Shown: piece by piece, positions 3,096-41,163 of the stretch
Layout of the letters: every line of letters begins with the position of its first letter
Numbering within the stretch: position 1 is the first letter of the stretch
Assembly: GCA_004193555.1 (NCBI GenBank)
Contig: RPGP01000040.1
Location: 439,127-503,126, forward strand
Direction: 5' to 3'
Source of the DNA: Desulfobacteraceae bacterium Eth-SRB1
GTDB taxonomy: Bacteria; Desulfobacterota; Desulfobacteria; Desulfobacterales; ETH-SRB1
DNA length: 64,000 nucleotides
The notes under the pieces: model-generated
Databases searched by the model: none
What the model was told of the DNA's origin: nothing
The model's input: the letters and a program-made list of their open reading frames with translations, nothing else
Translations under genes and position numbers: made by a program

Positions 3096-3962
3096 ATGAA
3101 AACCAAAGCAATATGGATTATTATTTCTGTGGTTGCGGCAGCCGGAATAATCAGCCTGCCGCTATTTTTTAATGGTGAACAGAATAACAGAGTGGACATA
3201 AAAGGCTCCACAACGGTGTGCCCGATAATCATGCGGTGTCTTGATCTATTCAAAAAAGATTATTCCGAGGCCCTGATTACAGTTACTAAAAGCGGTTCAG
3301 GTTCAGGCATTGCAGCGCTATTGGATGGCACTGCCGACATTGCCATGTCCTCCAGGCCTTTAACAGAAAAAGAGAAAAGCATTATTGCTGAAAAAGGGCT
3401 GAAAATCGACAGGATAGTTATAGGTCTGGATGGCATTGCGATTATTGTTCATGCTCAAAACCCGATAGACCAAATCAGTATCAAACAATTGCGCGATATC
3501 TACACAGGTAAGATTACTGACTGGAAAGAATTGGGGTGTACGCCAGGAAAGATTATCCCTGTTTCACGGGATGTATCCTCCGGCACTTTTGTAATCTTCG
3601 GCAAAAAAATACTCGGGTCAGAAAAACTCAGGCCGGATGTCCAGTTGGTTCCCTCCAACCGGGTTATGGTGCAGTCAGTGGCCGCGAATAAAGAAAGCAT
3701 TGGTTATGCAGGATTGGGCTATGTTGACAAGAGTGTAAAAGCCCTTGCTGTTAACGGATGTCATACTGATCCAACCACTATTAAGAGCGGAAAATATCCT
3801 CTATCCAGAGAGCTTTTCCTTTTTACCAGAGATGATTTTTCTGAATTAAAGAAGAATTTTCTTGAATTTGTCCTCAGTCCTGAGGGGCAGCGTATCGTAA
3901 GAGAGGAAGGCTTTGTTGCAGCAACAAATCAATCAAATTCCAAAAAGCGGCGTAAAGGCTGA
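3096..3962 (+). CDS. PstS-like phosphate-binding protein, copy 2 (operon-linked)
   Basis: A 288-aa PstS-family binding protein, near-identical to 428-1294. The N-terminal helix (residues 6-25) shows substitutions, while the central ligand-binding region is almost unchanged, as expected after gene conversion. Its last 50 bases overlap the start of the hybrid kinase at 3913. Translational coupling and the absence of Pst permease genes suggest it presents phosphate or a similar anion to the kinase rather than feeding a transporter. Confidence 0.85.
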   Translation: MKTKAIWIIISVVAAAGIISLPLFFNGEQNNRVDIKGSTTVCPIIMRCLDLFKKDYSEALITVTKSGSGSGIAALLDGTADIAMSSRPLTEKEKSIIAEKGLKIDRIVIGLDGIAIIVHAQNPIDQISIKQLRDIYTGKITDWKELGCTPGKIIPVSRDVSSGTFVIFGKKILGSEKLRPDVQLVPSNRVMVQSVAANKESIGYAGLGYVDKSVKALAVNGCHTDPTTIKSGKYPLSRELFLFTRDDFSELKKNFLEFVLSPEGQRIVREEGFVAATNQSNSKKRRKG

Positions 3963-25480: not shown

Positions 25481-26796
25481 TTACCCTATCCCGCCTTTTT
25501 TCAAATCTGCAATCCAGCCCGGAAAATGATGGGGTGTAAGCAAATCGAAAGTGTAATACTGCTTTGCACCTGCTCTGTATTGACTCTCAATATCTGCCAG
25601 GTTTAATGTATTCAATTTGCTGTTCACCTGTTCAAAGTGAGCCTTTGCATACTCCTCTTTTTTCGGAGTTGCTTCATCCTGCTCTTCATCTGACTTGATT
25701 TCTACTACCTTGATGATGGTTTCTATTCCTTCATCCTGAAGCTTTTTCAGGTTTTCAAGATGCGCTATCTTTCCTTCACTTTCAAGCTTTAAGATGTAAT
25801 TGTCCAGATCGATCTTTATGAAAAAATCGGGATTAAAACTTCGTCTGGCCCTGTCCTTGCCGCGTTTCCAGTATTCGTAATCAATGGAGTAAAAATTCTT
25901 GTCAGGTGATTTTATCCAGGAATCTATGTAATCAGAACTGTCTATCAATTGAAAAACAAACTCTTTTTCCGGTGAATGGGAAACCAGAACGATATTTTGG
26001 TGTTTTCCTGCAAAAACTGCATCCACAGCCGTTCATCTCTTGCTTCACTCTTCTTCCCATCCGGCCCTTCTTCCTTATCAAGCACAAGACGATTGTCCGC
26101 ATATTTTAAATGCGAATAGGCATGGTGGATTTCATCTCCAAGGACAAGGACTTCATCCGTGTTTTTGAACAAGGTGTCGGTAATACCGCCAAATGTATAA
26201 ACTGCGTTGATGTTTTCAATGACAATAGAGTCGTCTTCTATGGGGTCGTTGTCTGTGAGCAGGTTAATGGCTTTTCCCCGGTATCTTTGCGGGAGCTTGC
26301 TGTTGAATTCTCTTTTATTTATCAGTTCCTTGAATTTTTCGCGCAGACCCTGTTCGATAATGGTTGAGGACGGACCAAGCACAAGCACCCGTTTTGTGAG
26401 CCCCATGACAAGAGAAAGCCAGGCGATTGCAAAAATTACATAAGATTTCCCTGTACCGGTGGCCATGTGAACGACCCCGGAAAGCCGCTCAGGAAGGGGG
26501 AGTTGGTGGAGGAAATTTTCTTCTGTTCCGAACCGCTGTTGAATCTGCAATTTCTGTTTATAGTTTTCTCTTCCAAGTTCAGAAATGCTCTTGTAACTGC
26601 CGCCCCAGAGATAGATCATGATCTGTTTAATGGCATCATACTGATAGTCGCGCGAACCAACCAGCTCGCTGACATAGTCCTCTATATCTGAAAAACTGAA
26701 CTTGTTGTAATTGCATTTCCGGATATTTATATCCAGAGTGTGATCGGACAAATTCAGTCTTTTGATCGCTTTTTGTCTTTTCGGTCTCTTTGCCAT
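25481..26796 (-). pseudogene. Type III restriction subunit (Res), internally deleted and frameshifted
   Basis: The 5' part from ATG 26796 encodes the SF2 motor start: Walker A in HMATGTGKSYVIFAIAW, GPSSTIIEQGL and the DEIHH box, then stops after KISFWFPIHRKK near 25945. The 3' part, in another frame from about 26026, encodes HSPEKEFVFQLI, FNPDFFIKI and VVEIK, the PD-(D/E)xK endonuclease end of Res, to 25481. Roughly 500 residues covering the rest of the helicase are missing, with a junction near 25985. Normal Res proteins are around 900-1000 aa. DNA cleavage by this subunit should be impossible. Confidence 0.85.
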
Positions 26797-26968
26797 TTCA
26801 ACTCACTTTAATCCACAGATTTCGCAGATTACACAGATTACTATAATCACTTGAAGTGCGAGAGTGTCATATGTCATAACCTCCTAAATGCAAAATCTGT
26901 AGGGGGTTAATTCCCCGCAGCCTTCTGCACTCATTATCCCTTTTCAATCGAGTGAAGAAAATCTATAT

Positions 26969-27409
26969 TTATTCTCTCTCTTCCATCGAGTGAAAATCTA
27001 CATTTCTTCTCCCTCTCCCCTCGGGGAGAGGGCCGGGGTGAGGGGGATGAGGGTAAGAGGGAGCAACATTCCCATCCAAAGAAGAAAGAATCACAGTCAA
27101 AACAGACTCTGTTTCTTTCAAAACTTCATTATTCCAGAAACGCATAACCATGTATCCTTTTTCTTTCAAATAACCAGATCGCTTAGCATCTAATTCCATC
27201 TGCCCGGCATGCCGGCCACCATCAACCTCAATGACAAGTTTTTTCTCCAAACAGACGAAATCAACTATGTACGAGCCAACAGGGCGTTGCCGACGGAATT
27301 TATATCCACCGAGTTCACGATTACGAAGATGTCGCCATAAAAGTCTTTCGGCATCAGTCATATTCTTTCTAAGTTTTTTGGCAAGATGCTTCATTGTTTC
27401 ACCCCTCAC
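26969..27409 (-). CDS. DUF559 endonuclease-like protein
   Basis: A 146-aa protein with a DUF559 (Vsr-like PD-(D/E)xK) domain: LRKNMTDAERLLWRHLRNRE, VGSYIVDFVCLEKKLVIEVDGG (Asp, Glu, Asp catalytic set) and GYMVMRFWNNEVL. The last ~25 residues (PHPPHPGPLPEGRGRR onward) are translated from a palindromic REP element at 27010-27050, so the native end is probably near residue 118. It sits between mod and res, where it may have been inserted. Confidence 0.8.
   Translation of the reverse strand: MRGETMKHLAKKLRKNMTDAERLLWRHLRNRELGGYKFRRQRPVGSYIVDFVCLEKKLVIEVDGGRHAGQMELDAKRSGYLKEKGYMVMRFWNNEVLKETESVLTVILSSLDGNVAPSYPHPPHPGPLPEGRGRRNVDFHSMEERE
27010..27050. repeat. REP palindrome, copy 1
   Basis: CTCTCCCCTCGGGGAGAGGG and GGGGTGAGGGGG form a perfect hairpin with a tail. 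Related units are at 27398-27432 (CCCCTCACCCTAACCCTCTC) and 27692-27731 (CTCCCTTGGGGGAGAGGG), so DUF559 is bracketed by these elements. Confidence 0.7.
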
Positions 27410-27432
27410 CCTAACCCTCTCCCCAAGGGGCG
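27398..27432. repeat. REP palindrome, copy 2
   Basis: CACCCTAACCCTCTCCCCAA followed by GGGGCGAGGG, inverted relative to copy 1, close to the start of DUF559. Confidence 0.6.
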
Positions 27433-27517
27433 AGGGAACTTATGAAGTAGTCACCCAAGAAAAAAGGAGATTTCAGGAAAAATTTGCATCAGAGAAAGAA
27501 GTTTGAGCCCGATTCGT

Positions 27518-27549
27518 TTTTAAACAGGTCGAATTCGACCTGTTTAAAA
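27518..27549. repeat. Perfect 32-bp palindrome
   Basis: TTTTAAACAGGTCGAA is followed directly by its exact reverse complement. It is flanked by CCCGA and TCGGG, which extend the stem. It lies between mod and DUF559 and could form a cruciform, a bidirectional terminator, or a protein-binding site. Confidence 0.7.
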
Positions 27550-27691
27550 TTCGGGTTATGAATTTGTCCCCAAATTCCGATAAATTCAATAGTGCTTCGG
27601 CTTTTCATCCAATTTTGGATAATATAATTTGTCCTTTTCGAATCTTTGTACCTTGCTATAGATTTTCAAATAAATAGTTTTACACCGTTTA

Positions 27692-27731
27692 TTTCCCTCT
27701 CCCTTGGGGGAGAGGGTCAGGGTGAGGGGGA
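27692..27731. repeat. REP palindrome, copy 3
   Basis: CCCTCTCCCTTGGGGGAGAG with a GGTGAGGGGG tail, just past the stop of mod on the - strand, where it could also act as a 3' hairpin. Confidence 0.6.
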
Positions 27732-27746
27732 TTCCATTCGCTACTC

Positions 27747-29813
27747 TCATACTATAAAAACTTTGCTCTCATTGCCATGTTTATCAATGGCGATAACGGC
27801 AATGCTTTCCGTTAAACCGGTCATTTTAATCACGCCGTCATCGCCAATATCTTTGGCAAATACGGTTCTGTCTATATCAAAAATCTCCCCGTCATAATCA
27901 ACATCCACAAGCAGCATCGCAAGCCCGTCAAGCTCTTTTAAACGCTCGCCTTGTTTATCCAGTATCTTTGTCTCAAATCTGGTAATCTTCAAGCCCTGTT
28001 TGGTTCTCTCAACTTCAATCTCAACATTATCATTAAAATAAAACCCTGTCGAATTGATAAGGTTGTTGACATTTTCCTGGGAGCTTGGCTGCTGCTGTAT
28101 CTGAAAATTGCGGGAAACATCTTCCAGTATTTTGTAAGGAAACTTCAGCATCTTAAAATGCACATCATTACCGGCGCTGTTTTTCATGGTTGTATCACCA
28201 ACAAGGGTGCAGGTCTCCGGCGTGATGATATAATAATTGCCCTTTAGCTTGCCGCGGGACTGCAAAATAATCCCTTTGAGATACTTCTCATCAATCCTGA
28301 TGTTTTTCAAATACTCGCCATTCCACACAGGGTAAACCTCAACCGGATCGCCATCCTTTTCGCCAAAAATATTGGCAAGCCTGTATTTGCCCGACAAATC
28401 CTTTTCATCCCTGCTGCTCTGAAAAAGCCCAAGCACAAAATCGACATAGGCATCCCTGTTTTCCCGGAGCTTCATAATGCGGGAAAAATCATAGGCGCCA
28501 GTGGAAACCACGCAGAACGGTTTTGGAGGCTTGCCGTATTTTTGGTTTTTCTTTACATTCTTACCAAGCGCCTTTGATTCTCTGATCCTAAGCATCCTCT
28601 TTTGCATGGTGTAGATAGCATGTTTGCCAAAATCGCAGACGATCCATCGTCTGCCAAGCTTTTCCGCAACTGCCGCGGTGGTGCCGGAACCGGCAAAAAT
28701 GTCCATAACTATGTCGCCAGGGTTGGAGGAGGCAAGGATGATACGTTCGAGAAGGGTTTCGGGTTTTTGGGTTGGGTAGTTTGTATCTTCTTTAGCTTGA
28801 GAGTTAACTGGGGAAATATCTGTCCATATATTATCAATAATTACACCCTTCCCTTCAAATAGATAATTTTTCATCCTCGGTTTTGCGTTTGGATTTTTTG
28901 GATATTTTATTCTGTCTTCTGCTTCGAGTTTTTTTAACCTTTCTTCCGAATAACTCCCAATATTGTCCCAAAAATAAGGACCTCTTTCATCGCTCAGCGT
29001 AAAACGCTTCTTATATTCTTCGGAATAATCTTGATATTGAGGAGTAATCTTATGGTTTCCATTTGTATAAACCAATATTATGTCGTCTACAGCGAGCCAT
29101 TTATAAGAGGTCGCTTTACGTCCGCTTGAAATACGTTTCCAAATAATGTTGCACATAAAATCTGATTTACCGAAGACTTCGTCTAACATAACTTTGACAT
29201 AATGAATTGTTCTCCAATCAAGATGAACGTAAAGACACCCGTCTTTAGTTATTATTTCACGTATCAGAATCAGACGCTCTCGCAAATTTTCAATAAACTC
29301 AGTCGAATCAACCTTATCAGAGTAACTTTTTTCATCCCCCGAACCTTTCAAATCCCCCCTCGTCGCAAATGGCGGGTCAATATAAATCAGCTTCACCTTC
29401 CCCTTGACCCTGTCCTTGATCAGCGGATCAGCATTCCGGCAACAGGTCTTTAGAAATTGCAGATTATCCCCCTGCACAATCAGGTTCTGCCAGTTATCCT
29501 CAGTACCGTCCTTTGCTTTCTTAAACAGATCAAGCTGGGTTTCGCCCGTCAGGCTGCCGCCTTTAAAACACCGTTCAACCTGAAGCGGCGAGCCGGCATC
29601 CGTCGGAGACGCCTGGTTCAGAATGGCGGCCTCGCTTCTTTTCCCCGCATATTCAAGTGTAACAATTTTAGCCCTGTCCAGTTTGGCCACATCGAATTTT
29701 TCAGCCAACCCCGGAAAGAGCTTTATCATCAGCTCTGGAGGCAGTTCAGTATTGTTATTAAGCGCCTCAATAATCAGCTTCTTTTCTTCGTATGTAAGGT
29801 CGGTCTTTACCAT
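27747..29813 (-). CDS. Type III adenine-specific DNA methyltransferase (Mod)
   Basis: A 688-aa beta-class N6-adenine methyltransferase. Motif IV is [12 protein letters not shown] near residue 139; the AdoMet motif [17 protein letters not shown] near 367 comes after it, as in type III Mod subunits, with [12 protein letters not shown] near the start. The N-terminal ~90 and C-terminal ~250 residues probably carry target recognition and Res contacts. It appears intact although its Res partner is destroyed, so it may persist as an orphan methylase with epigenetic effects. Confidence 0.9.
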
Positions 29814-30041
29814 GAAATACTCCTGGTTTCTAAGTGGTCATAGACATTCAGCTAATGAAAAATTCTGCTGCAAGCTGTGCATGGCCAACGTTAATTTAAC
29901 CTGCTGGAACATACGGCGTACTGTATTTCAATATTTTTAAAAGCTTATTGCGAGTACCGAAAAATCAAATTCGCCAATCACTGTTTCAGTCAGGCTGAAA
30001 TTTTTGTTAGCACGACGGACTTGAACCAACGCACAAAATTA

Positions 30042-30458
30042 TTAATGAACCACCGAACTTTTTTTAAGCAATTTTAATTTTTCTTTATTTTTTTCCTTAA
30101 TTTCACATTCCCAAATTCTAATAACTTTCCAACCTTTTCGTTCTAATCTTTCATTAATCTGCTTATCTCGAATTCTGTTATTTTCAATTTTCTTTTGCCA
30201 GTATTCTGAGTTCTGTTTTGGTGTTAGATTTCTACAATTATGTCCATGCCAAAAACAACCATCGGCGAAAATAGCAATTCGCTTTTTTAGAAAAACAAAA
30301 TCCGGTATTGCACCAACGATTTTATAGTTCCTTCTCCAGCCCTTCAAACCTAACTGCTTGAAAAGCTGAATGAGTTTCAATTCAGTTGATTTGTTACCCT
30401 TAGGTTTATTAGCCTTCATTATCTCGGATCGCTTCTTTTTGGAAACCGTATCCGTCAT
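30042..30458 (-). CDS. vsr: Very-short-patch repair endonuclease Vsr
   Basis: A 138-aa Vsr protein. Family motifs are MKANKPKGNKSTEL near the start, the catalytic Asp in IPDFVFLKKRIAIFADGCFW, HGHNC with metal/zinc residues, EYWQKKIENNRIRD and WKVIRIWECE. Vsr nicks next to T:G mismatches created when 5-methylcytosine deaminates. It belongs with the C5 methyltransferase at 32169-33245, from which it is separated by a GHKL ATPase gene. Confidence 0.92.
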   Translation of the reverse strand: MTDTVSKKKRSEIMKANKPKGNKSTELKLIQLFKQLGLKGWRRNYKIVGAIPDFVFLKKRIAIFADGCFWHGHNCRNLTPKQNSEYWQKKIENNRIRDKQINERLERKGWKVIRIWECEIKEKNKEKLKLLKKSSVVH

Positions 30459-30502
30459 ATTCTTCTAATTCGATCCTTTCACCAGTTGCTGATCAAAACA
30501 AT

Positions 30503-32179
30503 CTATTCACCACTCGACAATAACGTCCTAATTCTTCCCTTTATATTATCGTAAACTGAAGTCAGTTTTAATTTTGCTTCTTCGGTCAAACGAGCAGTAT
30601 GCATAAGTGCGTCTCTAATTGGCTTGTATTGCTTTGAATCGTTATGAAGACAGTTTGTCTGACCCCTCGTATCAACTAGACCTGCGAGCCTAGTCATATC
30701 AAGGTAGCTTATATCGATGTTCGCCTGTCTAATTTCGATATTAATATTACCTGCCGCCTTGTTTCGACTTTCTTTTTGTTTTAGGTCGTCTATATGATCT
30801 TGAACACCGGATATATCATTACTATTCTCTATGATTAATTTCCGAACCAGATTTTCAGAAATAAAACACTCTGCATAAGAACCGAAATTAAATTGTGCAT
30901 CTTCACCTAATTCATTCACCCAATTTTCTACTCGTTCTCTGTAGTCAGTGTCATCTGGAGAAATGATACCATCACCACTGGGCGGGGTAGTATATTCTTC
31001 TGATACAACATCAAAAAGTCTTTTGGAAATTCTATCTCTTTTCTTTATTCGCATGTTTTCAGAATCACCGTCCATCCGATGTTTTACTCTCCACTTGTCC
31101 CAATCTTCAATGATTTTGTTTATAATCGTATTCTGGAGTTTTTTTAATAAACTCTCGAACTTAGGATCATTTGCTACGATTCCTTCACGAGCTGTAGCAA
31201 ACCTATCTTTACTATCATCTAACCCGTCAAAATGGATTTGTCCGTATAAATAGTTTTCTACGATTCTTGAAGTGGGTATTTGCTTTAAGATATTTCTCTC
31301 TCTTACTCTACCATTAACAAAAAGGTCGATACCTACCCTTTCATCTGAAGAAATAATCGAAAGGTTTCTCGGTTTTTCGACAGTTGCAATAAATCCCGTA
31401 AAATTGTCTTCAACTGCAAACTTGCCTTCTTCGAGTGGGGGGGATTTTTCTTTAAGTCTCTGGATGTATGGGTCCTGAATATCGTTTATTAGCCATATGA
31501 ATTGTGTTTTTGATGCCAAGTCATCCAAGCATTCGATAGTAATTGGTTCGTCGTTAAGAAATAAGTTGAAGGAATCGTCTGAAAGGGAAAATCTGAAATA
31601 CAAAGCGATAGATTTTTTTAGATAATCTACCGTATTTTTTATTCCGTCTTTTATGTTTTCAAAATAAACGATAGTTCCTTTTTGATGGTCTTCGATATAG
31701 GGTTCGAAGATACTTTTTTCCCAATTGCCCAGCGGATATTCCTGAGGTGTTAAATCCTCATTTATCGCTCTATTTAATCCAGAATTATCTATAGTTCCAC
31801 CGATATATTCCTCATTTTCTTTCTTTGATATAATAGAAATTTTATCCGCACAAGATAACAACGCTAATTTCCCTATCCCTTTCCTGCCAATGTAAGGTCT
31901 TCCCTTTGCAGATTCAGTCTCTCCATATTTTCTCTTCGTGTATCCAATTTTTAGAAATTTATCCTGAAAGTCATCTGCGGTCATTCCATCCCCGTCGTCT
32001 TTTATAACAAGACAGTTTTTATCCCTATCGATATAAATCCACACATTGTCAGCATCGGCATCCCAAGAATTAGAAACCGCTTCCCCTAGAACAGTTATAA
32101 AGCTTCGATATAAATTCCTCCCCAAGTGATTTAAAACGCTTAAAGAAATTTCGAAGGTAAATTGTCTTTCATCCGTCAT
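30503..32179 (-). CDS. GHKL (MORC/Hsp90-like) ATPase of the Dcm cassette
   Basis: A 558-aa protein with an N-terminal Bergerat-fold ATPase: N box GEAVSNSWDADADNVWI near residue 30, G1 box KDDGDGMTADDF near 57, and G2 box YIGRKGIGKLALLS near 97. A transducer-like middle domain follows (FVNGRVRERNI, RFATAREGIV) and then a helical C-terminal region. It overlaps the Dcm gene by 11 bases and is followed by vsr. Comparative work has linked MORC-like ATPases to restriction-modification systems, so a restriction or anti-phage role is likely. No nuclease motif was recognised in it. Confidence 0.85.
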   Translation of the reverse strand: MTDERQFTFEISLSVLNHLGRNLYRSFITVLGEAVSNSWDADADNVWIYIDRDKNCLVIKDDGDGMTADDFQDKFLKIGYTKRKYGETESAKGRPYIGRKGIGKLALLSCADKISIISKKENEEYIGGTIDNSGLNRAINEDLTPQEYPLGNWEKSIFEPYIEDHQKGTIVYFENIKDGIKNTVDYLKKSIALYFRFSLSDDSFNLFLNDEPITIECLDDLASKTQFIWLINDIQDPYIQRLKEKSPPLEEGKFAVEDNFTGFIATVEKPRNLSIISSDERVGIDLFVNGRVRERNILKQIPTSRIVENYLYGQIHFDGLDDSKDRFATAREGIVANDPKFESLLKKLQNTIINKIIEDWDKWRVKHRMDGDSENMRIKKRDRISKRLFDVVSEEYTTPPSGDGIISPDDTDYRERVENWVNELGEDAQFNFGSYAECFISENLVRKLIIENSNDISGVQDHIDDLKQKESRNKAAGNINIEIRQANIDISYLDMTRLAGLVDTRGQTNCLHNDSKQYKPIRDALMHTARLTEEAKLKLTSVYDNIKGRIRTLLSSGE

Positions 32180-33245
32180 TATATTCCTCCAAATGTTTCA
32201 TTATGCTTTTACCAATGATTTTACCTAATCTAACAGGAACTGCATTGCCGATATGTTTTCCAAGGCACTTAATGGAAAAGGGCAGTTTTGGATTGATGAA
32301 TTTATAATATTTAGGAAATGTCTGCAAAAGTGCCCCTTCTCTTAAAGATAATGCTCTATTCTGCTCTGGATGTCCAAAACGACCTGTCCCAAAATTGTAG
32401 AATTGTGTCGTAATTGTGGGAGCGGGTTTGTCACATTCCATTCTGGAATAGACAGAAACATAGCTTTTGCCCGAAGGTTTTCGATGGCAAGGGGTGCGCA
32501 GTTCTTTGTCCCAATCTCGCCAAGTTCCTCCTGGTTTAGACTTATGAATTCGTTTTTTATTGATTGTTGTAAGCTTACACGCCCTGTGTAAGGGATCTTT
32601 AATAGAAGTTTCTCCATCCCTTATAGGTTCAAGATTTCCAATGGTTTTTTTAACGGTGCGATATTGAGAGGGTGTATGAGTTTTGGATATTAGTTGGATA
32701 TTTCCAAGCTTTGAAGCTAACAGAACCAAACGTGTTCTTGTCTGTGGTATTCCATAGTCGGGACAATACACAAATTGCCAAGACATATGATAATCAAGCT
32801 CTTTTAGATTTCTAATAAAATCTGAGAATATCTCTTGCTTTTCAATTTGAGGTACATTTTCCATAGAGACAATATCGGGTTCTATCTTTTTTATTAATCT
32901 TGAGAATGAATGCAACAAACCCCATTTCTCGTCTTCATTTCTTTTGCTATTTTTTTGCGTATGGGTCGAGAATGGTTGACATGGTGCGCAACCTGCAAGT
33001 ATTCTGATCCCATTATCTGGATATAGCCTTGCCAATTCGGTTCCGGTAATTGCTCTAATATCTTTGTTGATGAATTTTGTATTATTATTTTTTTCATACG
33101 CGTATTTACATGTTTCATCGGTATCGATGCCTGCAATTACAGGTATCCCGGCTTTTATAAAGCCGTGTGTCATTCCGCCAGCTCCACAGAACAAATCCAC
33201 AGCAACTACAGACAATTTATTATTTTTATAAGATTCTTCCTTCAT
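32169..33245 (-). CDS. DNA (cytosine-5) methyltransferase
   Basis: A 358-aa C5 methyltransferase with motif I DLFCGAGGMTHGF near residue 17, the catalytic PCQ in AGCAPCQPFSTH near 88, ENVP motif VSMENVPQIEKQ near 129, and the C-terminal HIGNAVPVRLG (motif X). The variable target-recognition region is short (about 200-290), so the site cannot be predicted. It is coupled to the GHKL ATPase and vsr, and together these form a small R-M-like cassette. No classical restriction endonuclease is adjacent. Confidence 0.92.
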   Translation of the reverse strand: MKEESYKNNKLSVVAVDLFCGAGGMTHGFIKAGIPVIAGIDTDETCKYAYEKNNNTKFINKDIRAITGTELARLYPDNGIRILAGCAPCQPFSTHTQKNSKRNEDEKWGLLHSFSRLIKKIEPDIVSMENVPQIEKQEIFSDFIRNLKELDYHMSWQFVYCPDYGIPQTRTRLVLLASKLGNIQLISKTHTPSQYRTVKKTIGNLEPIRDGETSIKDPLHRACKLTTINKKRIHKSKPGGTWRDWDKELRTPCHRKPSGKSYVSVYSRMECDKPAPTITTQFYNFGTGRFGHPEQNRALSLREGALLQTFPKYYKFINPKLPFSIKCLGKHIGNAVPVRLGKIIGKSIMKHLEEYNDG

Positions 33246-33755: not shown

Positions 33756-35195
33756 TTATTCTGTAACCAGAAAATTTTCTACCACCTTCTTGCCGAGGAA
33801 ATCGGCCATTTTGCCTTCAGAATAAGTATGGTTATTTGATTCTGCAATTGAAGCTATTGCCTTCCCAACGACCACTTCCCATGGTTTATCACAGCCGAGT
33901 ATTCCGAGAATGTCATTTCTAATAGTTTTGATATTAGATAATCTCCTGTCAAAAGATGATTGAGCAAAAGAACGCATTGCATCAAAATGCGGGTGCGAGG
34001 TATTGTCCTGCATCCATTTCTCAATCCCCACTCTGGCCGAATCCCAACAGCTACCAATAATTGCCAATGCTTCGTCGGTAAGAAGCAAGTTTTCAGATGA
34101 GTAACAGTTTAACCTCGCCCTAACAAGGGGCGGCTTGTCTGATATATCCTCGTCAATGCCGTCACCGTCCCTTAAGGAAAATGCCTTTGCTTTTTCATAA
34201 ACAGCTTTCATAATGCTGACGGCCTCATCCTCATGCTCATTTAGGTTCGCTTTACCACCCACAGAGCAGGGATAGAGCTTGAGTTTTGCATTGGCTGTTC
34301 TCACAGCCTGTTGCCATATTCTTTCTTCATCTTCTCCTTCGACAAGTAGAAGCGGTTTCTCATTAAAGACGTTTGAGAGCGGATGAGCACCAAAAATGGG
34401 TAGTATTTTATTATAAGCCTCTCTTATGGTTTTGAAGTTGAATTTTTTCTGGCCTAATGTCATAAATTCGAAACGCGTGTATGACTCTTCAGCTAATGCA
34501 GATAGTAATGCAGTGCTGTGTGTTGCGATCAAAATGTAGGTGTTTTCGATAGAGCAGATACTTTTCAACAAGATTCCAAATCGGTATTGCAGGTCTGGAT
34601 GCAAATGCATATCTGGCTCGTCTAACAGTAATAAATTGGGTTTGTTCGGGACAACCTCTTTCTGAAATACAAGGCATTCAATCGACAATGAAATAAGCTC
34701 GGATTCACCGCTACTAATTTTATCTGACGAGATTTCAGTACCATTTGTTTGCAGAATTATCTTGAATCCTGATTTTGCTCTTATAATTTCTACCGAGTCT
34801 AAAAGCATATTGATTTTGTCAACGTAGGTATCAAAGGTGTGGTCAAGATCTAAACGTAACTTCTTGTCCTTTTCAATCTCGCGAAGTGAGAGAAGTTCAA
34901 GATTGCGGTACTGTGCCATACTCTGTTGTCTAAATTGATCAAAACGGTTTGTTCTTCTTGTGTCCATTAACCAAGTTGGGTTCTGTGAAATGGTGTTGTC
35001 GATACCAGGATCGTATATTAGGTTTCCGCCACGTTCAGGAGTGATATACTTTACTTTTCCGATAGTGCCTTTATTAAATAAACACTTATCAATCGATCTT
35101 AAAAGAGAACTTTTACCACAACCGTTCTTCCCAAGGACAAGATTAATTCTGTCCAGATTTTGAAGTATGTAACCATTGAGGGGCGGTAAATCCAT
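33756..35195 (-). CDS. OLD-like AAA ATPase
   Basis: A 479-aa ATPase of the AAA_21/OLD group. Walker A is LVLGKNGCGKSSLLRS near residue 20, the ABC-like signature region SSGESELISLS near 163, and Walker B LLLLDEPDMHLHPDL near 192 with IATHSTALLSAL after it. A TOPRIM-like segment starts FNEKPLLLVEGEDEERIW near 277. Such proteins (OLD, GajA relatives) act in phage defence, often with a partner. No second subunit is adjacent, and it is flanked by repeat copies, so it may act alone. Confidence 0.82.
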   Translation of the reverse strand: MDLPPLNGYILQNLDRINLVLGKNGCGKSSLLRSIDKCLFNKGTIGKVKYITPERGGNLIYDPGIDNTISQNPTWLMDTRRTNRFDQFRQQSMAQYRNLELLSLREIEKDKKLRLDLDHTFDTYVDKINMLLDSVEIIRAKSGFKIILQTNGTEISSDKISSGESELISLSIECLVFQKEVVPNKPNLLLLDEPDMHLHPDLQYRFGILLKSICSIENTYILIATHSTALLSALAEESYTRFEFMTLGQKKFNFKTIREAYNKILPIFGAHPLSNVFNEKPLLLVEGEDEERIWQQAVRTANAKLKLYPCSVGGKANLNEHEDEAVSIMKAVYEKAKAFSLRDGDGIDEDISDKPPLVRARLNCYSSENLLLTDEALAIIGSCWDSARVGIEKWMQDNTSHPHFDAMRSFAQSSFDRRLSNIKTIRNDILGILGCDKPWEVVVGKAIASIAESNNHTYSEGKMADFLGKKVVENFLVTE

Positions 35196-36650: not shown

Positions 36651-36811
36651 GGCGCCAATTTCTTCTTTACCAATTTTTCAGGTTTCTTTGATATGGCGGT
36701 GCGCTCATAAAGCATGCCATCAATTTTATTTCGCAATGTCCGAACACTCCAGCGTTCTATCCGAAGGAATTTTCCAACAAGTTGTGGAGAAATGATTTCA
36801 ATCCGTATCAT
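36629..36811 (-). pseudogene. DUF1016 (YhcG-type) internal fragment
   Basis: The 60-codon frame contains ERWSVRTLRNKIDGMLYERT and AISKKPEKLVKKKL, the core of the DUF1016 N-terminal domain (WSVRQLDRQINSMLYERTALSKKPE). Both ends are missing. Its ATG overlaps the stop of the helicase-nuclease as ATGA. Confidence 0.65.
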
Positions 36812-39800
36812 TCAACTGCAAAGGCATTCCTTAAAAATCTATCCAAAACATCCGTCTTTGTTTCACCATCCTGCTCCGGCCGCAGGTTGAACTTATTCAG
36901 CCTCAAAAACCGGTAGCCGTAGCTTTCAAGCTCTATCTGACGGCTGATGTCATAATCAAGGTACTCTTGGGAAAAATTATGTTTGGTCACAGTATCGGGG
37001 TTTTTTGTATGGTATTCCACGCCGTCATATTCCAGAATCAGGGCCTGCTCTTTGCCGCCTTTTGAAAAGGTCATGAGAAAATCAACCCTGTATTTCGGTA
37101 TCTGCTTTGCGTATTCGGCCCTGATGTATTCTCCGATTTTAAACTGGGGAATGATTTTTACATACTCCCTGTGGGTTTTTACAAAATTCGTGCTGATCAA
37201 AAGATTGTACAGATCTTTTTCCGGTGGCGATTCAAAAATTGCCGTGTCTTCGATGAAAAAATCATTCTTTTTGTTTTCGTCAAGAAGCTTGTCATAATGC
37301 CGTATGGCATCGCCAAGCCTGGTTTTACCATACTTATTAACCGGCATGCTGTGTACAAAAACCATTGTGTCTTTGGCACGGCTGAACCCCACATTGAGCC
37401 TCTGCATCTTTAGGCTCCTGATATTGTCCGCCGTTCCGTCAATGACCGGATAAATGCTTCGCAAATTAGCGTTGCCGTATTTGCTGTCTTCTACAAGGGA
37501 GTAATATACAATATCACGTTCTTCGCCCTGGACATCTCCGACAAACCATACTGCCAGATCATAGTTCCTTTTCAGTTCCGGCATGTTAAGCTTTTCGTTC
37601 AGCGCCTGCTCCATTCTTGCCTGCTGTTCACGGAAAGAGGTAATAATGCCTGCGCTTCCCTTAAAACCGTTTTTGATACGGCTGTCCAGGTCATGAATAA
37701 CGGCGTCTATTTCATCATAGTTTACATTGCTGCCGGAATTTCCTTTGGTTTGCACGGGAATAAACTGCAAGACTTCGCCTATCGGTTTAGTGCGGATGCG
37801 GTTGATGCTGAGATCGAGCAGTGCGGGTTTGTAAAAGAATTCATTTGAATAATCTATGATTTCAGGGAAACTCCGGTAATGCTCACGGAGAGAAGTGGTG
37901 TAATTTGCAATGGCTCTGGCAAAACTTAGTGTTGATGTGCGGATATTGAAGGTTTTGAGCCACAGGACTGCGCCTGCGTTATCCTCCATAGGGCGCAATG
38001 CCTGTTCAGCTTCCTGTTCATCCTCATCTATCTCTTTGGAGACGTCTTCAATCAGCTCATTTACCTCCTGATCTGTTGCAGATGCGCTGTAATCATCTTG
38101 ATACGCATTTACGATGTCCCTGAAATATGCGGCGGAATATTTTGAGTTCACGTTAATTGCGCCGACAGCGCCGTACTGGTATTCATCGCCAAAAACAACT
38201 ACCTGCTTTGCCCGCAGGATAAGGGAGATTGATTCGGCAATAGAGACCTGGGAGGCCTCGTCAATAACAAGAAGATCGATCAGGTCTTCATCCATTGGAA
38301 AGTGCTTCGATATCATGTCGGGTTCGGCAATAATTCCTGATACGTTTTCCAGGAGCACCCTGGCCTGCGTGCTTGTCAGCCTTTGCCCTCCGGCAAAAGA
38401 AGCCTTAATCCTGGCGACATCCCCCAAAACGGTGTTGAGATTTTTCATCCGAAGATCGTTTTTGTGTTCAACCTGTTTCTGCCTGAGTTTATTGAAGGCA
38501 TCGAGATCATCTTTGTTAAATGAATCAACAGCCGTTTTTGGGGAAAGCGCATGGTGGAGTTGAATCCATCTCCAGATATCGGCTTCAGTGCCCGTAAGAT
38601 TGTTTAGCCGTGATAAAGCGCCTAATTTTTCGCTTGAAATTTTGAGCCTGGCAAGCATTGTTCCATAGTTTTTGAAAAGGGAATTGATGGAGTTGAAAAG
38701 CACTGCGTCCATTTTTTGAAGAGCCTCTTTCACGCTATCAAGGGTATCATAGACTTCGGAAATGCTTTTTTCTTTGTTTCCGGCCACTTCGCGGTATTCG
38801 TCAATGATGTCCCTGTGCTTCTTCAGAGAGATGGCTGTTTGAAGCGCTGAAATTCCTTCAGAAGCCATATCCAAAGTGAGTTCGTTTGCCGGCACGTTTT
38901 TCAAGCGCACAATTTCTTCAATAATATTTGCGTGTTTCAAACTCTTTAAAGATTTGATCAGTTGTTCCAGAACCTTCCTGTCAGGAGCCTTTCCGAACAA
39001 CTTTTTGAAGAATGCGCCGGGGATATCGCCGGACTGAAGCGCTGAAATGGGTATATCCATTTTAAGCGATTTTACGCACGCTTCTATTAGATCGACAAAA
39101 GATTTTGGGACTTCAGTGAGAGTTGTCTCAAAAGCAAGCTCTTCGCTGGAATGAAGATTGATTGCTTCACAGGCATTAAGAAACCTTGGAATATCTTTCC
39201 GGTGTTTTAGAAGAAAGCGAAATGCTGTTAGACCGATATCGCTGAAATTATCAATAATCGGATCTTCGGCAAATTTTTGTATCTTTTCAAAATCAATTAC
39301 AGCCGAAGCATCGCCTTTGGGAAGAGCAAAATCGTCATCTGAGAACTCACAGGAACTAATAAGCCTGCTCTGTATCTGCTCAAATTCAAACAGATCGTGA
39401 ATCTTTTCTCTGTACTTGCCGGATGAAGAAATCTGCTTTTCTATTTTTTCGGAGACAGATTTTTTTAACTCTTTTTCATCCTGCTCAACAGCCTGGCTGT
39501 TGTAGTCATTTGCCCGGTCACCCGCAGCGTTTATCACCGCATTCTGAAGGGAGTTTTCAAGTGCGTTTATTGATTTGCCATTTTTAGACAGCCTGATGAT
39601 TGATGGTTTGGCATTGGGATGCAAGTCGCGGAACTTGTCTGTAAGCATCCGGTCGATCACGTCAAGGGCCTGTTTTTTGTGAGAGGTGATTACAACAGAT
39701 TTCCCTTCCTGATTGGCCCAGTAAGTTATTGCTGCAATCGTGTGGGATTTGCCGGTTCCGGGCGGGCCATCAACAACAATAATCTTATTCTTTGGCTTAT

Positions 39801-41163
39801 TGAGAGCAAGGAGAATTCTCTTTTGAGAAATATTCAGATTTAAAGAATTATCAGAAATGTATCTGCCGGCGCTTTTGATCGGGTATCTCTCGATAAATTC
39901 CCTGTCAACTGCGTCCTGTGTGTTTTCCACATTTCCGTCAATATAATCCGAGATAAAATCGACGAATTTGTTTTTTTCGTCTGATTTAAGCCGCGTCATT
40001 ATTTCTGAATAATCGAGAAGTTTTTTATTTTCGTTCCTGACAACCTGAAATCCGATGCGGCATCTGATATCCGGGTAAATATCTTGTTGGGCTTTTATTG
40101 GTCTGAAATAAGGCTCCAGCACAAATGGTTCATTCCAGCCGTACTGAGCCTGCAAAAAAACCTCCATCCCGCCAAGGTTGGAGACCGCGTTTTTGAGGGC
40201 AGATGATCTTGAGACTGTAAGAACCGATGGAAATTTGAAATAATTAACAGCAGGGGTGTTAATCAGCAAAAGATCTCTTGGAAATGAAATTTCTACTTTC
40301 TCAGCGGCAGGCGCTAAATTAAGCTCAATAAAGAATATCGGATATCCCTCAACCGCGTCATTATCGGTTCGCCTGCTTAACTCGTGAAAAAATAGATAGA
40401 TTGTTCCGACAGTGTTGTATCTGGCATATTTTTGTATGCTGATAAACAGATCATATAGAACGATGTCATCAATACCTTCCTTGAAATACTGTCTGACAGT
40501 GCTGATATATTCTTCTTGGGACTTGGTCTCCCGCGCAATAGACTGGAGCGCATCAAAATGTTTTTTCAGATAATTGGCAGGATTGAAGGTTGAGGCGGGA
40601 ACATGCTCAATACCCAATTCATCTTTTAAACGGTCAATCTGTTTTCTCTGTAGCTCAACAAGGATATTTTCTATCTGCTTTCTAAGGGCAAGGTTGTATT
40701 TACGGCAGCCGTCAAGGAATGTCTGTAAATTCTGTTTTTCGATCTCTTGTTCTGAAAGGTCGGTGTTGTCGGCGGCCTGCAATCCTTTTTCGGTTGCAAT
40801 AAAGACGACATCCCGTTCGGCCACCTTTTGAACTTCCTGCTCAATACATGATTTCAGATATTCCAGGCCAAATTTATCCGAAAGAGTCTTGTTGATCTCC
40901 AATAAGAGGTCGTCGCCTGAAAGCGAAAGAACGTGCTCATTATTTTTTACTGTAAGAGGAGCTCTGTCTCCGGCCTTTATTCTCTGTAAGAGTTTATCTT
41001 GAAAGTCCTGAAATATTCCCAAGTCGAGGGTCAGCTCATTGTTTGTCCATCGATAGTTTATCAGTGTCCTGAAATTAAATCTTGTTTCAGTAAATGCCGC
41101 AAAGTAATTGAGGATGTTTGCAGATAATCTGGTTGCGCTTTTTTTGTTTGGCATTGGATTCAT
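36808..41163 (-). CDS. SF1 (UPF1/Dna2-like) helicase fused to a nuclease domain
   Basis: A 1451-aa protein. Walker A VVDGPPGTGKSHTIAAITYW is near residue 467, and Walker B LLVIDEASQVSIAES near 960; motifs III-VI follow, ending SLKMQRLNVGFSRAKDTMVF near 1262. The final ~100 residues carry RVDFLMTFSKGG and LILEYDGVEYHTK, a DUF559/Vsr-like nuclease site, followed by LRLNKFNL. The ~450-residue N-terminal region and a ~400-residue coiled insertion between motifs I and II are uncharacterised. Large helicase-nucleases of this layout are common in defence islands, so a single-protein anti-phage role is likely. Confidence 0.82.
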   Translation of the reverse strand: MNPMPNKKSATRLSANILNYFAAFTETRFNFRTLINYRWTNNELTLDLGIFQDFQDKLLQRIKAGDRAPLTVKNNEHVLSLSGDDLLLEINKTLSDKFGLEYLKSCIEQEVQKVAERDVVFIATEKGLQAADNTDLSEQEIEKQNLQTFLDGCRKYNLALRKQIENILVELQRKQIDRLKDELGIEHVPASTFNPANYLKKHFDALQSIARETKSQEEYISTVRQYFKEGIDDIVLYDLFISIQKYARYNTVGTIYLFFHELSRRTDNDAVEGYPIFFIELNLAPAAEKVEISFPRDLLLINTPAVNYFKFPSVLTVSRSSALKNAVSNLGGMEVFLQAQYGWNEPFVLEPYFRPIKAQQDIYPDIRCRIGFQVVRNENKKLLDYSEIMTRLKSDEKNKFVDFISDYIDGNVENTQDAVDREFIERYPIKSAGRYISDNSLNLNISQKRILLALNKPKNKIIVVDGPPGTGKSHTIAAITYWANQEGKSVVITSHKKQALDVIDRMLTDKFRDLHPNAKPSIIRLSKNGKSINALENSLQNAVINAAGDRANDYNSQAVEQDEKELKKSVSEKIEKQISSSGKYREKIHDLFEFEQIQSRLISSCEFSDDDFALPKGDASAVIDFEKIQKFAEDPIIDNFSDIGLTAFRFLLKHRKDIPRFLNACEAINLHSSEELAFETTLTEVPKSFVDLIEACVKSLKMDIPISALQSGDIPGAFFKKLFGKAPDRKVLEQLIKSLKSLKHANIIEEIVRLKNVPANELTLDMASEGISALQTAISLKKHRDIIDEYREVAGNKEKSISEVYDTLDSVKEALQKMDAVLFNSINSLFKNYGTMLARLKISSEKLGALSRLNNLTGTEADIWRWIQLHHALSPKTAVDSFNKDDLDAFNKLRQKQVEHKNDLRMKNLNTVLGDVARIKASFAGGQRLTSTQARVLLENVSGIIAEPDMISKHFPMDEDLIDLLVIDEASQVSIAESISLILRAKQVVVFGDEYQYGAVGAINVNSKYSAAYFRDIVNAYQDDYSASATDQEVNELIEDVSKEIDEDEQEAEQALRPMEDNAGAVLWLKTFNIRTSTLSFARAIANYTTSLREHYRSFPEIIDYSNEFFYKPALLDLSINRIRTKPIGEVLQFIPVQTKGNSGSNVNYDEIDAVIHDLDSRIKNGFKGSAGIITSFREQQARMEQALNEKLNMPELKRNYDLAVWFVGDVQGEERDIVYYSLVEDSKYGNANLRSIYPVIDGTADNIRSLKMQRLNVGFSRAKDTMVFVHSMPVNKYGKTRLGDAIRHYDKLLDENKKNDFFIEDTAIFESPPEKDLYNLLISTNFVKTHREYVKIIPQFKIGEYIRAEYAKQIPKYRVDFLMTFSKGGKEQALILEYDGVEYHTKNPDTVTKHNFSQEYLDYDISRQIELESYGYRFLRLNKFNLRPEQDGETKTDVLDRFLRNAFAVE

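Follow-up and report, generated by a model that had tools for sequence, protein, structure and literature searches.

A 64,000-nucleotide stretch of contig RPGP01000040.1 from Desulfobacteraceae bacterium Eth-SRB1 (below, the window, to which all coordinates refer) encodes a C5-cytosine DNA methyltransferase (Dcm) next to a GHKL-type ATPase whose C-terminal end is predicted to be a metal-independent ribonuclease (RNase) of the HEPN type. The dcm gene and the ATPase gene are a conserved, co-inherited unit, and the vsr gene that follows them in the window is an optional accessory. We consider it moderately likely that this unit is a methylation-guarded, ATP-switched HEPN RNase that leads to abortive infection, with Vsr as an optional repair enzyme; this proposal draws on sequence motifs and structural models.

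All three open reading frames (ORFs) are intact, lie on the minus strand like every part of the unit described below, and are transcribed in the order dcm, ATPase gene, vsr. The dcm gene (32169–33245, 358 amino acids) is read first. Its stop overlaps the start of the ATPase gene (30503–32179, 558 amino acids) by exactly 11 bases, ATGACGGATGA (32169–32179), and a GGAGG ribosome-binding site is located a few bases before the ATPase ATG. The overlap suggests that the two genes are translationally coupled. After a gap of 44 bases comes vsr (30042–30458, 138 amino acids), which encodes a mismatch endonuclease of the very-short-patch-repair type. The products match the Pfam families DNA_methylase (3.1e-61), HATPase_c_3 (2.9e-20) and Vsr (3.6e-18). 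The three genes and their 11-base overlap had been described in an earlier note on this DNA, and ORFs, Pfam and NCBIfam confirmed them. The G+C content is reduced at 30001–32000 (0.356, compared with about 0.42–0.43 in the surroundings).

Conservation of the Unit

Relatives of the ATPase were collected by scanning one genome per species. This yielded 80 loci with full-length relatives, which are 47–84% identical, and viral contigs and plasmids added more. Neighbourhoods were counted for 84 close full-length relatives, the presence of vsr for 78 loci with enough flanking sequence, and motifs in an alignment of 85 sequences. The carriers belong to about 20 phyla, including archaea, and Paracoccus tegillarcae is one of them; their distribution is patchy and extends to plasmids and viral contigs. 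A C5-methylase gene of the same kind lies on the same strand directly upstream of the ATPase gene in 79 of the 84 relatives, and downstream of it in 3. The two ORFs overlap in 69 of these 79 pairs, a count in which the longest-ORF start may precede the true start in some cases. The distances between Dcm proteins and between ATPases correlate (Mantel r = 0.72, reached in 0 of 2000 permutations). Clustering of neighbours across loci revealed no third conserved gene beyond Vsr and no other conserved nuclease partner.

The vsr gene is found directly downstream in only 20 of the 78 relatives, and we therefore regard it as an accessory. It is missing in the other 58, so the idea that Vsr is the required nuclease was rejected. 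On the ATPase tree, the presence of Vsr changes about 12 times, at least 5 of them forced on well-supported branches; Vsr is gained or lost repeatedly. The Vsr proteins of the relatives belong to visibly different subfamilies. The Vsr of the window matches NCBIfam TIGR00632 with 118 bits (cut-off 98) and aligns to the E. coli Vsr structure 1cw0 (4e-18), including both active-site stretches, PDF and GCFWH. The earlier note had treated the three genes as one cassette. The pairing of dcm and the ATPase gene holds and extends well beyond this case, whereas Vsr does not belong to the core.

The C-Terminal Domain

HEPN RNases are defined by the motif Rx4-6H, in which the arginine is followed by a polar N, D or H (Anantharaman et al. 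2013, PMC3710099). HEPN families typically also carry an upstream Ex3[KR], and the main motif is placed at the end of helix 3 and the start of the loop before helix 4. Outside the motifs, the families resemble each other poorly (PMC3710099). The C-terminal domain of the ATPase (residues 411–556, 30512–30949) is a helical domain of about 150 residues, which was modelled alone with a predicted local distance difference test (pLDDT) score of 92.5. It has an Rx4H motif, R522-D-A-L-M-H527 (30599–30616), which we predict to be the RNase active site, and an upstream Ex3R motif, E442-N-L-V-R446 (30842–30856). Across all 85 sequences, E442-N-L-x-R446 (except L444), R484 and R522-[D/N]-x3-H527-T528 are invariant, and the position after R522 is always D or N. 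In the helical model, H527 is placed just past the penultimate helix. In the domain's own numbering, this helix spans residues 117–132 with R128, H133 follows it, and the next helix begins at 139 and ends at 162. Thus the polar second residue, the upstream Ex3R and the helix-end placement are all present.

Fold comparison with VIA-align gave 2q00 as the top match (Z 8.1, root-mean-square deviation (rmsd) 3.8, 103 residues aligned), with a Z score in the chance range for helical bundles. The structure 2q00 is listed as HEPN (PMC3710099). Two other HEPN structures were among the top 8, the HepT toxin 6m6w (Z 7.0, rmsd 3.8, 96 aligned) and a Csm6 segment, 6tug (Z 6.6, rmsd 5.6, 103 aligned). Detection by sequence yielded no match, and the case for a HEPN domain therefore rests on the motifs and the model. 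No PD-(D/E)xK or HNH signature was found in the domain, its comparison by hhalign with the nuclease end of HgiDII gave no usable similarity, and a Pfam search with two of the C-termini at E 10 returned no match. Among 395 genomes searched in the phylum, the domain is confined to this protein of about 560 residues, in 4 genomes.

The ATPase Module

The GHKL and S5 parts of the ATPase form one module (residues 9–378, 31046–32155). The GHKL motifs E33/N37, DDGDGM, GRKGIGKL and GT are intact, and all 85 sequences share the catalytic Glu33 and Asn37 and the G1 and G2 boxes without change. The AlphaFold2 model of the whole protein (pLDDT 85) has its best alignment with the ATPase of MORC3 (5ix2; VIA-align, Z 22.2, rmsd 3.5, 295 residues). 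The description of this ATPase as MORC-like in the earlier note was therefore right for the fold. A GHKL domain with all ATP motifs plus an S5 domain, which is how MORC proteins are delimited by Iyer et al. (2008, PMC2292703), is present here. The S5 motif given there, GhXhhpXXRhl, does not fit. In the consensus xIDLFVNGRLREK of the S5 stretch, the first G is not fixed, V occupies the polar position and R the last aliphatic position. Therefore, MORC proper was rejected, and the ATPase is a paraMORC.

BbrUII/HgiDII enzymes, which are described by the NCBIfam model NF050001, are Type II restriction-modification (R-M) enzymes specific for GTCGAC. The ATPase matches this model over residues 7–375 only (293 bits, 3.5e-87). 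This is far below the curated cut-off of 550 bits, and the C-terminus of the model is unmatched; members of NF050001 in other loci score 687–801 bits over their full length. In their alignment, the C-terminal end of the HgiDII-type relatives shows GRIDI...GKHIIIELKR, the motif of a PD-(D/E)xK nuclease, with weak SduA_C and NucS matches. On the ATPase tree, the HEPN-type ATPases form a single branch (Shimodaira–Hasegawa-like approximate likelihood ratio test (SH-aLRT) support, 97). It had been suggested earlier that an ATP-driven effector replaces the endonuclease here. The ATPase does take the place that the endonuclease holds in HgiDII-type R-M systems, and apart from it no nuclease partner is conserved. 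However, it is not a bare motor, since its last 150 residues or so carry the invariant HEPN-type motif of a predicted RNase.

The Methylase and Its Predicted Target Site

The Dcm matches NCBIfam TIGR00675 with 136 bits, and its catalytic motifs DLFCGAGG, PCQ, ENV, QTRTR and GNAVPV are intact. Its identity to the Dcm proteins paired with HgiDII-type enzymes is 47–54%, which is as close as the median of its own family. The target-recognition region (residues 185–285, 32391–32693) is 45–59% identical to that of eight HgiDII-type Dcm proteins, the median within its own family being 51%. M.HgiDII is a characterised 5-methylcytosine methylase of GTCGAC, and M.BbrUII is a homologous 5-methylcytosine methylase (PMC5867850). 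Because the recognition region is common to HgiDII-type methylases and M.HgiDII methylates GTCGAC, the target of the present Dcm is probably GTCGAC. Within the window, 2 such sites occur and 5.1 are expected, and 95 of 100 shuffled sequences had at least as many; this deviation is weak and was not used as support.

Proposed Mechanism and Alternative Explanations

We propose that the unit would act as a mobile defence module resembling R-M systems. Host DNA would be methylated by the Dcm at a short site, for which GTCGAC is the probable sequence. The co-translated ATPase would be both sensor and effector. Its GHKL-S5 clamp may dimerise with ATP and engage DNA that lacks the methyl mark, and the movement of the clamp may free or align the C-terminal HEPN domain. 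This domain would then cut RNA, be it phage RNA, mRNA or tRNA, which would stop the phage or the infected cell. Thus, the unit would keep methylation as its guard, as in Type II systems, and carry an RNase end in place of the usual DNase end. Where Vsr is present (about one unit in four), it probably repairs the T:G mismatches that arise from deamination of 5-methylcytosine. The chances are about even for the more specific proposal that a GTCGAC-type methylase and a GHKL clamp of the DNA-cutting HgiDII type drive the HEPN RNase, so that unmethylated foreign DNA leads to RNA cleavage and abortive infection.

Several results weigh against the proposed mechanism. The fold matches of the C-terminal domain (Z 6.6–8.1) lie in a range that can be reached by chance among helical bundles, and its Foldseek E-values were not significant. 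No Pfam family matched the domain in 48 members, a profile search of the PDB with it returned no match, and hhalign against the Ymh HEPN domain gave a probability of 1%. GTCGAC is not clearly depleted genome-wide in the host (132 sites, compared with 149 for the reversed control). Finally, the ATPase gene lacks a neighbouring family Dcm in 2 of the 84 relatives (L021 and L083), and no family Dcm was found anywhere in the L083 draft genome. The L021 draft genome contains only a weak match to the family Dcm, with 30% identity.

The surroundings of these two genes are as follows. In L021 (3–3251), the HEPN-type ATPase gene stands directly after the DISARM genes drmB and drmC, and no dcm is present there. 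This arrangement suggests exchange between system types. In L083 (4017–8572), an HNH Type IV-like enzyme is encoded after the HEPN-type ATPase, with a DUF262-like gene nearby.

It is also conceivable that the unit has kept DNA cutting and works as a Type II-like R-M system. In that case, unmethylated sites would be bound by the MORC-type ATPase and cleaved either by its C-terminal domain or by a nuclease from an unlinked gene, and the HEPN-like motifs would serve dimerisation or DNA binding. The N-terminal module and the Dcm recognition region are indeed common to the GTCGAC-cutting HgiDII-type enzymes, and PADLOC labels the ATPase protein REase_II. However, the C-terminal domain has no nuclease signature of the PD-(D/E)xK or HNH kind and does not resemble the nuclease end of HgiDII at the profile level, those of its invariant residues that are of a catalytic type form the HEPN set, and the loci conserve no other nuclease. 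We regard continued DNA cutting as unlikely.

HEPN domains are common as toxins (PMC3710099). The Dcm and the ATPase-HEPN protein could thus be an addiction module of the toxin-antitoxin kind, in which methylation silences the HEPN toxin and phage defence is a side effect. The patchy spread over many phyla, plasmids and viral contigs would fit such a module. This explanation overlaps with the RNase mechanism proposed above, and the setting in a defence island, among an ABC/Toprim-like ATPase, a ProA/MkoA-like helicase and Type III-like genes, favours defence; we think that a primary role in addiction is distinctly unlikely. Joint action of the trio, with the ATPase as a motor and Vsr as a DNA-nicking restriction nuclease, comparable to MutL and its partners Vsr or MutH, is very unlikely. 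In its favour, vsr directly follows in the window and in about a quarter of the relatives, its presence changes repeatedly on the tree, and the MutL-Vsr analogy appears in Iyer et al. (2008). Against it, roughly three in four units of otherwise similar make-up lack Vsr, and its different subfamilies fit accessory repair better than a required subunit.

Comparison with Known Systems

The closest known systems are of the BbrUII/HgiDII type, a combination of GHKL and PD-(D/E)xK that is labelled paraMORC3 in phage PhiR44_1. The GHKL-S5 module is common to both (residues 7–375; 365 residues), as are the kind of Dcm and its recognition region, and dcm often lies directly upstream there too. The difference is in the C-terminal end. 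About 280 residues with a PD-(D/E)xK DNase are found in BbrUII/HgiDII, whereas the present ATPase ends in an unrelated helical HEPN-like domain of about 150 residues. R-M operons in which MORC/paraMORC ATPases are combined with cytosine methylases and Vsr nucleases have been described (Iyer et al. 2008, PMC2292703). The claim that this is a new kind of system therefore did not stand. The neighbourhoods of GHKL-S5 ATPase, cytosine methylase and Vsr, which were predicted there to be R-M systems, are alike; in contrast to those operons, no helicase partner is present here, and the available part of that paper does not mention a C-terminal domain of the HEPN-like kind.

Fusions of paraMORC with a Ymh HEPN domain in R-M loci have also been described (Anantharaman et al. 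2013, PMC3710099), and they were proposed to be functional analogues of PrrC/RloC. In them, too, a GHKL ATPase with a C-terminal HEPN domain stands beside a cytosine methylase. One such locus, from the same phylum as the window (L129, 262–3363), is an operon of the ATPase-Ymh(HEPN) gene, dcm and vsr. It thus shares Vsr with the window, where the order is dcm, ATPase gene, vsr. The HEPN family appears to differ (no Ymh match was obtained with Pfam here, and hhalign gave a probability of 1%), and the branch of the ATPase tree is a different one. Because the ATPase branches differ and the HEPN domains are not detectably similar, the two fusions look independent. PrrC/RloC likewise link an antiviral HEPN RNase to an ATPase (PMC3710099), but that ATPase is of the ABC type, whereas a GHKL ATPase is combined with a C5-methylase here. 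In VcSduA (GHKL-Shedu), an effector domain is also fused to a GHKL ATPase; phage protection has been shown for it, and both the ATPase and the nuclease are required (PMC12137116). Its effector differs, being a PD-(D/E)xK nuclease (DUF4263), and no methylase partner is named for VcSduA in the available part of that source. Within the limited literature searched, we found no paper that names the HEPN domain of this ATPase clade. The HEPN swap on an HgiDII-type module, which Pfam and NCBIfam do not recognise, appears to be new.

Neighbouring Genes

The unit is located in a minus-strand defence island at about 25–41 kb of the window, which also holds Type III-like genes, an ABC/Toprim-like ATPase gene, a DinD fragment and a ProA/MkoA-like helicase gene. 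Downstream of vsr, Type III-like R-M genes occupy 25481–29813 (minus strand). Their N6-methylase gene (27747–29813) is intact, and the helicase/restriction gene is divided into two overlapping ORFs (25945–26796 and 25481–26026) and looks broken. Between them, a small DUF559/Vsr-fold-like protein is encoded (26969–27409, minus strand), whose C-terminal end enters a repeat sequence of the HPGPLPEGRG type. It looks as though a palindromic repeat became part of the coding sequence. Upstream, the dcm unit is adjoined by the gene for an ABC-type ATPase of 479 amino acids (33756–35195, minus strand) that has matches of the AriA/PtuA kind and may end in a Toprim domain. Farther away, at 36808–41163 (minus strand), an SF1 helicase of 1451 amino acids is encoded. 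It is weakly similar to the anti-phage proteins ProA, MkoA and Hhe, with scores far under the curated cut-offs, and has a possible nuclease-like C-terminal end; perhaps it is an undescribed relative. Outside the island, two near-identical genes for PstS-like phosphate-binding proteins (428–1294 and 3096–3962, plus strand) lie 2.7 kb apart and represent a recent duplication.

Significance

Proteins of this kind are widespread; their effector domain escapes current family models, and the ATPase part by itself yields a misleading label of restriction enzyme. The results offer a clean comparison between closely related pairs of a methylase and an ATPase clamp, some with a DNase end and others with a predicted RNase end. 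It thus becomes directly testable how recognition of DNA by GHKL/MORC clamps is converted into firing of the effector, and this is relevant to eukaryotic MORC proteins. If the proposed mechanism is true, nature would have exchanged the effector of a Type II R-M chassis in a single clade that is widespread in bacteria and archaea. Such a two-gene restriction system would be triggered by unmethylated DNA and directed against RNA, and restriction-modification and abortive infection would be united in one protein.

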